A stretch of DNA of 64,000 bases from Candidatus Gastranaerophilales bacterium. Its GTDB lineage: Bacteria > Cyanobacteriota > Vampirovibrionia > Gastranaerophilales > Gastranaerophilaceae. The notes below the pieces were generated by a model. It was not told the DNA's origin and did no database searches. It saw nothing but the letters and a program-made list of their open reading frames with translations. Position 1 is the first letter of the stretch, and each line of letters starts with the position of its first letter. The translations under genes and the position numbers were made by a program. Of the stretch, positions 328-5,575 are shown piece by piece. The stretch spans positions 1-64,000 of the forward strand of contig CALUWJ010000009.1 of NCBI GenBank assembly GCA_944324455.1. The letters are read 5' to 3'.

Positions 328-2151
328 TTACAACTCCGTGACACAGCGCACCGACAAAGCGTACGTACGGCGATAGCTATTCTGACCCCAACTACCACTA
401 TTCAAGTAGTAATAGTATGAATTAGAACCACTAACAGAACTACTCCACACGTCGGACGGGTAGCACTCAACACCGATCAACCCTGGGCACCTGTACGAAT
501 AGTTACAAAATGCGGACGAGTAACCCGACCAGTTGTCGCAAAGTTGAAGCCCGTTAACTCCTAACCCAATTGAATTAGTATCCCAATTAGACATTTCAGA
601 CTTTGTTGCTAATCTCCAAGTTCTACCTCCTGCAGTAAAATTTTTACAAATATAATCAGCAGCATACCAATCACAAACTGTTCTTCTGCAGCCGGAGTAG
701 GCGCCACCATTAGCATTATCGCAATTAGCTCCTGATGTAGCCCCCTTCCAACAGCATCTTTTTGAACTACTAATGTCACATGTTTGATTAACATTTGCAA
801 CAGCAACCCCACTTGGGATAGGTAAAGAAGTATGGTCACCCATATTAAATCTGGTAACTAACAAATTACCTATTTGCATAAAAGCTGGAACTTCACATGC
901 TGGGTTCGTTGTTGCATTTGTTAATTCATACCCGCCTTTACATGCGGTACATTTTGAAGTTGTACAACTTGTACAATTTGCTCCAAATTTAGAAGCGCAA
1001 TCAATTTCGCATTTACCATTTTTTAATACATATCCGCTAGCACATTTTAAACATGTATTTCCATCACACATTTCACACCCTGCGCTAATTTTATCAGCAC
1101 ATGATGTAACTTCAGCGACACAGCGCACCGAATCGGCGTAAAGCCTACCCTGGTTATTCTGATCCCAACTACCACCATTCAAGTTGTAACCGTATGAATT
1201 AGAACCACTAACAGAACTACTCCACACCTCACTCGGGTAGCAAAAGTCATCGGTCGACCCTGGGCAACTGTACGAACTGTCACAATACGCGGACGAGTAA
1301 CCCGACCAGTAGTCGCAAAGTTGTAGCCCGTTAACTCCTTTTCCAATTGAATTAGTTCCCCAATTAGACATTTCTGATTTAGTTGCTAATCTCCAAGTTC
1401 TACCCCCAGCTGTGAAATTTTTACAAATATAATCAGCAGCATACCAATCACATACTGTTCTATTGCAACCAGAGTAGGCGCCACCATTAGCATTATCACA
1501 ATTAGTTCCAGATGTAGCCCCCTTCCAACAGCATTTATTTGAACTGCTAGAGTTACATGTTTGATTAACATTTGCAACAGTAACCCCGCTTGGAATGGGT
1601 AGAGTTGAACTATCACCCATATTTTTCTTTGTGATACAAAGATTTCCAATCTGTATAAAGTCTGGGCTTGAACAACTAAAAGATGAACAAGGATTGCTTG
1701 ATGTCGGATTAGTTAAAACATATCCATCAGCGCATGATGTACATTCACTTTCAGTGCAACTTGCGCAATGGTTAAATTTATCTGAACATGATTGACAATT
1801 ATCATCACTATCAAGATACTCTCCATCAGGACAAGTTAAACATTTTTTCTCTGTGCATTTAGTGCAATCTTCGCCATATTTATCTTTGCATGGTAAACAT
1901 ATACAATTTTTAGTATCCATATATTCACCATCAGGACAAGAAATACCGCAATCAATACAACCGGCTGAAGTGCACAAAGTGCAATAATCACCGAATTTAT
2001 CAGAACAATCTGTTGTTAAATCGCCGGTGCCGCCTCCGCCAAAGACACCTGATGAAAATTTTTTAGTAATAATTGGCGTAAAAGCAGCTGTGATACAGCT
2101 TATTACGATTAAACTGATTAATAACTCGACTAATGAAAACCCTTTTTTCAA
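328..2151 (-). CDS. Prepilin-like protein with two variable lectin-like domains; probable DGR target
   Basis: About 607 residues, starting at TTG (2151-2149) behind a strong GGAGGA site. The ATG at 2190 would add 13 residues ahead of the KKG/FSLVE prepilin signal and has no such site, and the left paralog supports the shorter start. After the prepilin helix come Cys-rich modules (CSDKFG..C..C, CPDGEY). Then a domain with GGRTWRLATKSEM and WSSSVSGSNSY...SVRCV occurs twice (roughly residues 165-365 and 425-607), separated by more Cys-rich units. These motifs resemble DUF1566/Fib_succ_major domains with a C-type-lectin-like fold. The 3' ~70 codons of each copy differ at about 28 codons, mostly by amino acid replacement, while intervening codons are identical even at third positions. 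That is the pattern of DGR variable regions. Likely role: exported, displayed, diversified binding protein. No RT gene is in the window. Confidence 0.8.
   Translation of the reverse strand: MKKGFSLVELLISLIVISCITAAFTPIITKKFSSGVFGGGGTGDLTTDCSDKFGDYCTLCTSAGCIDCGISCPDGEYMDTKNCICLPCKDKYGEDCTKCTEKKCLTCPDGEYLDSDDNCQSCSDKFNHCASCTESECTSCADGYVLTNPTSSNPCSSFSCSSPDFIQIGNLCITKKNMGDSSTLPIPSGVTVANVNQTCNSSSSNKCCWKGATSGTNCDNANGGAYSGCNRTVCDWYAADYICKNFTAGGRTWRLATKSEMSNWGTNSIGKGVNGLQLCDYWSGYSSAYCDSSYSCPGSTDDFCYPSEVWSSSVSGSNSYGYNLNGGSWDQNNQGRLYADSVRCVAEVTSCADKISAGCEMCDGNTCLKCASGYVLKNGKCEIDCASKFGANCTSCTTSKCTACKGGYELTNATTNPACEVPAFMQIGNLLVTRFNMGDHTSLPIPSGVAVANVNQTCDISSSKRCCWKGATSGANCDNANGGAYSGCRRTVCDWYAADYICKNFTAGGRTWRLATKSEMSNWDTNSIGLGVNGLQLCDNWSGYSSAFCNYSYRCPGLIGVECYPSDVWSSSVSGSNSYYYYLNSGSWGQNSYRRTYALSVRCVTEL
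355..564 (-). repeat. Variable region copy 2 (C-terminal, at gene end)
   Basis: This segment encodes the end of the second lectin-like domain and aligns without gaps to 1132-1341. Differences fall in whole codons: GGT/GAT, CGC/GGT, TAT/CAG, AGC/AAC, TAT/GGT, TCC/AGT, and GAG/TTT. The constant blocks between, such as those coding WSSSVSGSNSY, are identical over more than 30 bases. The position at the 3' end, followed by a GC-rich invariant stretch (TCGGTGCGCTGTGTC) and a hairpin, matches a DGR variable region and its homing signal. Exact edges are uncertain by tens of bases because the template repeat is not visible. Confidence 0.65.
1132..1341 (-). repeat. Variable region copy 1 (internal)
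   Basis: Internal counterpart of the C-terminal variable region. It is the same length and in frame, with changed codons at the same sites and an identical GC-rich 3' flank. Unlike the C-terminal copy it is not followed by the TTGGGC hairpin. It may be a second homing site, or an older copy seeded by duplication of a diversified domain. Confidence 0.6.
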
Positions 2152-2190
2152 AGCTTCCTCCAGAAATTCGCGTAACAAATTAACGCGCAA

Positions 2191-4879: not shown

Positions 4880-5575
4880 ATGCCAAAGACAAATTTAGAA
4901 GTTATGCTTATATCAATTCCTGATAATCTTTTGGATGTAATTTACACTGCATGCAGAACCTGTTACAGTCCTGACGGTGCTGTTGATATATATGAAAATA
5001 TTACTGATGACAACGAGAAAAAACTTAATTTAATTAAAAGAGTAATTTCATCCGGTCATTATTCAACCATAGAACATATTCAAATTACTTTTGCAATAAA
5101 TAATATTTCTCGAGCTGCAACTCATCAATTGGTTCGCCATAGACACATGAGTTTTTCTCAAAAATCCCAAAGATATGTTAAAGAAAAAGGCGAATTTGAT
5201 TTTATTGTGCCATCAGCAATTGAAGCCAAAAAAGATTTATATGAAAAATTTTTATTACACATGGATGAAGTTGCAAAATTATATCAGGAATTTGTTGAAA
5301 ACGGCATAAAAAGCGAAGATGCAAGAGCAATTTTACCAAATGCAACAGCAAGTTCCATGGTTGTTAGTTTAAATTTAAGAGAATTAATTCACTTGGCAAA
5401 TTTAAGATTGTGTACAAGAGCGCAACTGGAAATTCGATTAGTTGTTAAAAAAATGTGTGCACTTGTCGAAGAAAAAGAACCTTGGCTTAAAGAACATTTA
5501 GTTCCAAAATGCGAAAGACTTGGTTATTGCGATGAAGATAAATCATGTGGAAGGATGAAAACAAAAAATGGATAA
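4880..5575 (+). CDS. thyX: Flavin-dependent thymidylate synthase
   Basis: 231 residues. ThyX makes dTMP from dUMP with FAD, NADPH and methylene-tetrahydrofolate, replacing ThyA. The signature RHRx7S is present (R86, R88, S96 in [11 protein letters not shown]), as are the upstream GHYSTIEH segment that binds FAD/dUMP and the C-terminal [12 protein letters not shown] helix. Start ATG at 4880 after GGGAG. The last 8 bases overlap prfA, suggesting translational coupling. Secure. Confidence 0.96.

Follow-up and report, generated by a model that had tools for sequence, protein, structure and literature searches.

Introduction

The reverse transcriptases (RTs) of diversity-generating retroelements (DGRs) are marked by the motifs (I/V/L)GxxxSQ (PMC3521204) and YxDD. 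In the Bordetella phage BPP-1 a structured spacer RNA, which recruits RT-Avd, lies 3' of the template repeat (TR) (PMC12875486), and in DGR targets a hairpin or cruciform with a GRNA loop is expected after the variable repeat (VR) (PMC3240598). Remote VRs of cyanobacterial DGRs occur only near gene 3' ends, often with kinase domains (PMC7517822), and in Thiohalocapsa PB-PSB1 the nine loci with their 15 targets are linked to NACHT and conflict systems (PMC10907252). DGR targets of the Lcl_C (DUF1566) type include putative pilins and lipoproteins; the same work reported cases with two TRs, with more than one VR and with several VRs in a single ORF (PMC6642488). Systems with several TRs, several VRs, two VRs in one protein, multiple targets and action in trans are already published. 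Our literature search, which covered the main texts of freely accessible papers, found none joining DGRs with Gastranaerophilales or Melainabacteria; large DGR surveys may mention such cases.

Here we describe a gene from a gut Gastranaerophilales bacterium that is almost certainly a trans target of a cellular DGR. The apparently intact, multi-target system belongs to an uncultured gut lineage related to cyanobacteria and is aimed at pilin-type binding proteins.

Results

The target gene

The window, the whole stretch of 64,000 nucleotides that was analysed, is G000:C9:1-64000, that is, contig 9 of the MAG G000 (1.76 Mb, 40 contigs), whose named relatives are Candidatus Gastranaerophilales gut MAGs; the contig starts at window base 1, and the assembly therefore holds no sequence for the leftward extension that an initial annotation had asked for. 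The gene of interest (Table 1), whose coordinates had been given correctly in this initial annotation of the sequence, encodes a prepilin-type N terminus followed by Cys-rich repeats, lectin domain A, further Cys-rich repeats and lectin domain B. The ORF (328-2190, minus strand) opens with another TTG, but the TTG at 2151, giving MKKGFSLVELL..., is the better start because a ribosome-binding site precedes it. A prepilin-like protein had been proposed, and a prepilin motif is indeed present: PF07963 (N_methyl, 22.4 bits against a cut-off of 21.2) and TIGR02532 both score above cut-off for the class III signal peptide and hydrophobic helix of type IV prepilins. The genome encodes a prepilin peptidase (PF01478, 44.1 bits, C8:82007-82339), and a termite-gut relative encodes pilA, pilB, pilC, pilT and pilD (PMC5877343).

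Table 1. Features of the target gene and its surroundings (window coordinates).
Feature	Position	Strand	Basis or remark
Second prepilin-type paralogue, 5' end (MKKAFSVLELVISLMVIASIMAAFTPLITKKFSS...), cut at contig end	1..134	-	sequence
Inverted repeat TTGGGC-GCAA-GCCCAA	302..317	-	23 bp past VR-B homing end
DGR target gene	328..2151	-	profile matches and sequence
C-type-lectin-like domain B, C-terminal	331..885	-	AlphaFold2 pLDDT 93
Variable repeat VR-B, 3' end of gene	332..545	-	TR1 comparison
GC-rich 3' end of VR-B, invariant, TCGGTGCGCTGTGT	341..354	-	
C-type-lectin-like domain A, internal	1111..1662	-	
Variable repeat VR-A, internal	1117..1325	-	TR1 homology from AACTTTGCGAC up to GC-rich end
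GC-rich 3' end of VR-A, invariant, TCGGTGCGCTGTGT	1118..1131	-	candidate initiation-of-mutagenic-homing site
Prepilin N-terminal cleavage/methylation motif KKGFSLVELLISLIVISCITAA	2083..2148	-	TIGR02532 18.1 bits, cut-off 16.3
GGAGG ribosome-binding site before TTG 2151	2157..2161	-	sequence

The structural model of the domain (pLDDT 93.1, pTM 0.91) shows the kind of fold that the initial annotation had linked to DGR targets. It matches the C-terminal domain of Lcl (8q4e; Z 10.7, rmsd 2.1, 101 aligned) and the DGR targets TvpA of Treponema (Z 9.1) and Mtd (Z 8.4), and a C-type-lectin fold is thus predicted. At the level of profiles, Lcl_C matches the protein in two stretches with an E-value of 5e-8, its 33.6 bits lying slightly below the cut-off of 34.9.

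Comparison of the two domain copies over 70 codons (1132-1341 and 355-564) gave 26 differing codons with 21 replacements, and the changes fall 14, 14 and 13 times on the three codon positions. This pattern, including the three-base Ser switch TCC/AGT, had been described before with slightly different counts (about 28 codons, some 22 replacements). In the 240 bp 5' of the variable parts the relation reverses (Fisher p = 0.003), as had also been noted, although the dozen silent changes and handful of replacements reported there turned out to be 14 and 8, at 22 codons and chiefly in third positions.

Two further observations concern the neighbourhood of the gene. The paralogue at the contig end has a full-length homologue elsewhere (L023 7277-8764) and may run on into contig C15 (L021 1-1896), which begins inside a like gene; the join is unproven. 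Just past the target gene, at 2455-2700, lies an ORF remnant (MKRRDFIVNSALCV, then TGA) that is apparently a decayed lipoprotein-like gene.

The DGR cassette

The initial annotation had called for a search for a DGR RT and a hidden, adenine-rich template. Both are present in the genome, on contig C12. The sole RT match in the MAG has an intact open frame of 387 amino acids, and the RT of 381 amino acids carries the motifs IGNLTSQ and YVDD (RVT_1, 51.7 bits). Read on the minus strand from the contig end, which truncates a cis target VR and leaves its 3' part, the order continues with avd, RT, TR2, TR1 and a terminator, beyond which ruvB lies in convergent orientation. The avd gene is also intact; its product matches Pfam bAvd with 42.7 bits (cut-off 40) and NCBIfam DivGenRetAVD with an E-value of 7e-13, yet below that model's cut-off of 80. 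Compared with PDB sequences, the RT is most similar to the 8ub7 series (E 7e-28), the BPP-1 RT-Avd-RNA complex, and Avd gave no meaningful match. The GC-rich end TCGGTGCGCTGTGT is identical in the two tandem TRs and in most VRs.

VRs or targets sit at the ends of contigs C9, C12, C15 and C21, a pattern of breaks that repeats produce when short reads are assembled, and the repeats and contig breaks could be artefacts of mixed strains in the MAG. We consider this highly improbable, since the VR/avd/RT/TR order is kept across relatives and the RT-avd-TR linkage recurs in independently assembled genomes, open frames continue through the VRs, and the MAG is 99.4% complete with 0.76% contamination. 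A phage origin was also rejected: a pattern-based search of viral contigs turned up relatives of neither the RT nor the target domain.

TR2 (L002 8199-8540) is the first template after the RT; its leader is nearly identical to that of TR1, and it is an orphan over its 3' half. No VR partner for this distinctive half was found in the genus sample. With 36 non-adenine mismatches to each of the window VRs, TR2 was ruled out as their template. Small ORFs run across the TRs (MKKYKENELM...), but the start is out of frame in the sister species G007, G022 has not kept the frame, and an in-frame stop interrupts the TR of G002. The TRs are therefore read as noncoding.

Adenine-specific variation

Each VR was compared with TR1, and mismatches were counted at template adenines and at other bases. 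As the initial annotation had anticipated for a template repeat, they concentrate on adenines. VR-A differs at 22/54 adenines and 19/150 other positions (p 2.7e-5), VR-B at 21/54 and 12/150 (p 8e-7). The cleanest case is the VR on C21 (18/52 against 0/124), and the partial cis VR is equally free of other changes (6/25 against 0/66). Corresponding values are 25/55 and 4/152 for C20_A, 17/53 and 11/151 for C20_B, 24/55 and 8/152 for C17_A, 30/55 and 6/152 for C17_B, 25/55 and 8/152 for C15_A, 20/55 and 10/152 for C8_1, and 16/55 and 7/152 for the VR on C3; the lowest p in these tests was 2e-15. Two copies, C15_B and C8_2, lack the bias and seem to be of old origin and to have drifted since. When ten VRs are taken together, columns with all four bases number 14/55 at template adenines and 0/152 elsewhere, and columns with at least three bases 36/55 and 8/152 respectively (p 8e-19). 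Substitutions at template adenines were A>G (112), A>T (74) and A>C (32). Of the TR1 adenines, 36/55 fall in 18 AAY codons, which are unable to mutate to stops; 53% of the cells for these adenines are mutated, compared with 14% for other adenines, an excess that may reflect template design, selection or both. Sister species repeat the pattern independently: in G017 the cis VR shows 24/56 adenine and 0/151 other changes, and 10 of 11 VRs are adenine-biased in G007.

These numbers bear on the proposal that no retroelement is involved and that the copies arose by ordinary duplication, with positive selection or gene conversion on the binding surface. The ordinary divergence of the upstream domain halves, the two unbiased copies and the diversity of copies in genomes without an RT would all suit that proposal. 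We nevertheless regard it as next to impossible: the variation tracks the adenines of a separate TR, not one non-adenine position is changed in the cis VR of G017, and adenine-only differences already refute it. Gene conversion among the VRs was considered separately. Sharing of derived states at adenine sites is not above expectation (mean observed minus expected -0.009), which disfavours gene conversion as the main source; the most alike pair, C9_A (VR-A) and C9_B (VR-B), shares 9 derived states where 4.8 are expected.

Against the DGR explanation stand the 19 and 12 non-adenine differences of VR-A and VR-B from TR1. In part they form shared blocks: the two VRs have five changes in common in columns 137-163 (the C9 block, TGGAGTAGTTCTGTTAGTGGTTCTAATTCATAC), and C15_A, C17_A, C8_1, C20_B and C9_B have common changes at columns 109 and 112, columns at which G007's own TR reads AATTGG. 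Such blocks suggest templates that have since been replaced or that the assembly lacks. The simplest reading of these sequences would be that there were, or still are, additional templates beyond the assembled contigs; one TR encoding AATTGG and one matching the C9 block are predicted.

A family of targets

The proposal that a DGR diversifies a protein with two variable sites was thus supported, but it was incomplete, as the cassette lies on a separate contig, appears to act in trans and has about eight targets, a count in which cut genes on separate contigs could be pieces of one gene. No fewer than 11 VRs, spread over 8 contigs, appear to be served in trans or in cis. The eleven biased VRs belong to prepilin-type genes on C9, C20, C3, C15, C17, C8, C21 and C12; the genes on C15 and C12 have lost their 5' ends to contig breaks, and a prepilin start is assumed for them. 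Family members share a plan of prepilin helix, Cys-rich repeats and lectin domain with VR, to which several add a second Cys-rich stretch and a second VR-bearing lectin domain.

The inverted repeat TTGGGC-GCAA-GCCCAA lies 23 bp after the C-terminal VRs of C9, C20, C3 and C17 and after C8_2. It does not follow the five internal VRs (C9_A, C20_A, C15_A, C17_A and C8_1), where coding sequence continues; no hairpin was found downstream of the GC-rich end of VR-A, and none after the cis VR. Since the internal VRs are as adenine-biased as the rest, the hairpin is presumably dispensable here or replaced by another feature.

A structured leader 5' of the template repeats

Between the RT stop and the TR lies a leader of ∼ 160 nt that is conserved in both units of G000 and in G017, G007 and G022. 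An alignment built from sequence only gave 39 pairs with 97.9% of cells paired and compensatory changes in 11 pairs; shuffled controls had a mean of 2.9 such pairs and slid versions 0-4. In the model-fitted alignment 34/39 pairs covary, but this alignment leans to the model and takes in a probable false match (L135) and a weak one (L036). The L135 match (23 bits) has no TR after it and was taken as chance. The leader has no match in Rfam. Searching 28 genus genomes with the covariance model at E 0.01 matched only these TR leaders; the model finds template repeats without the position of the RT. Looser or family-wide searches added a match in G002 and two tandem leaders in G220, from another genus. 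In G002 leader and TR are opposite in direction to the RT, and in G220 the leaders are on a contig other than that of the RT; because of these arrangements we assign the leader to the template rather than the RT mRNA. An intact TR follows directly on the G002 leader and on one of the two in G220; the TR that follows the second G220 leader is truncated. A terminator stem starts 54 (G000), 58 (G007), 101 (G017) and 19 nt (G220) after the homing end of the TR; the same scan called none in G022, G002 or G026.

The leader would serve RT-Avd docking, priming or cDNA stopping. A broader proposal, which we make tentatively and with somewhat more doubt than confidence, is that DGRs here use a different template-RNA architecture, in which one self-contained RNA unites a folded 5' leader of ∼ 160 nt with the TR and, where one was called, with a terminator close behind it. 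In RT-Avd docking, and perhaps in the priming or stopping of cDNA, the leader would take the part of the 3' spacer of BPP-1; modules of leader and TR could thus be duplicated, placed anywhere in the genome and serve many targets in trans.

Distribution

Relatives of the RT occur in 39 of 288 sampled family genomes and in 13 of 41 genera. Within the genus the RT family is found in just 7/28 genomes, whereas the target domain is found in 19/28, also where no RT was found. This difference is what a past DGR, now inactive or being lost, with its domains as a frozen repertoire, might leave behind; it would fit, too, that only the C21 VR and the partial cis VR show zero non-adenine change from TR1 and that the distinctive half of TR2 is without a VR partner. 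On the other hand, RT and avd are intact, a covarying fold is kept in the TR leaders, and the same two VRs, being free of non-adenine changes, argue for recent homing. We consider the loss of the system unlikely, and it may be active today.

Several genomes of the sample are unusual in other ways. G022, a genome of ∼ 1.8 Mb, has the highest number of lectin-domain copies, 97, of which about eight are near the TR at the DNA level. Its RT-adjacent repeat (L028 7274-7490) differs from the cis VR (5136-5348) at 16/213 sites without adenine bias and reads TAC/CTT in place of the expected AAC, as if the template copy had been overwritten. G009, G019 and G027 have 20-27 target-domain copies, several per polypeptide, and no RT was found in them; we read these targets as having outlasted an RT or never had one. 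In genus g26, the cis VR on L142 (G184) differs from its TR at 8/37 adenines and 0/99 other positions; the TR is on the strand opposite the RT, and the locus represents another family DGR with a different layout.

Discussion

We propose the following route for the diversification of the window gene. Both TR units on C12 would be transcribed into template RNAs, which the RT, together with its partner Avd, would copy while misreading adenines. The mutated cDNA, held at the invariant GC-rich end, would then replace the 3' ends of the lectin domains that about eight prepilin-type genes encode. By this route the ∼ 18 asparagine (AAY) codons of TR1 could become nearly any residue and no stop codon, so that the presumed binding face would change on a constant fold. 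By its prepilin motif the protein would be anchored or assembled in a type IV filament, and two variable binding sites would therefore be presented per polypeptide. Filament display is the reading that the motif suggests; the protein could also stay membrane-anchored through its N-terminal helix. The system is a real DGR whose core is of a known kind, and its template-RNA architecture looks like a new variant; with the leader, the question of whether recruitment of RT-Avd can occur 5' of a template becomes accessible to experiment.

The system resembles the DGR of BPP-1 in its Avd and SQ-motif RT, adenine mutagenesis, C-type-lectin target (the match to Mtd), GC-rich VR end and, after C-terminal VRs, a hairpin. 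BPP-1 is a phage, whereas the DGR described here is cellular and its VRs are dispersed in trans. The TRs are located 3' of the RT, unlike those of BPP-1, and the structured RNA lies 5' of the TR, the reverse of the BPP-1 arrangement (PMC12875486). The hairpin loop is GCAA here and GRNA in BPP-1 (PMC3240598), and the internal VRs are without the downstream hairpin that the BPP-1 target needs, which counts against the DGR explanation. Cyanobacterial DGRs (Vallota-Eastman 2020, PMC7517822), from the same broad phylum, likewise act in trans on dispersed C-type-lectin paralogues, but here about half of the VRs lie inside their genes, and prepilins are the targets. Action in trans and several VRs per target protein are shared with Thiohalocapsa PB-PSB1 (PMC10907252), from which the present system differs in having one RT found and pilin-type surface targets. 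The target domain is Lcl_C-like by Pfam and by fold, yet differs from described Lcl_C targets (PMC6642488) by its prepilin leader and its two lectin domains linked by Cys-rich repeats. Finally, modular type IV pilins such as PilB of Streptococcus sanguinis (PMC8179133) also join a binding module to a pilin N terminus, so that the filament presents it; the vWA module of PilB is fixed, whereas the module described here is hypervariable and occurs twice per protein.
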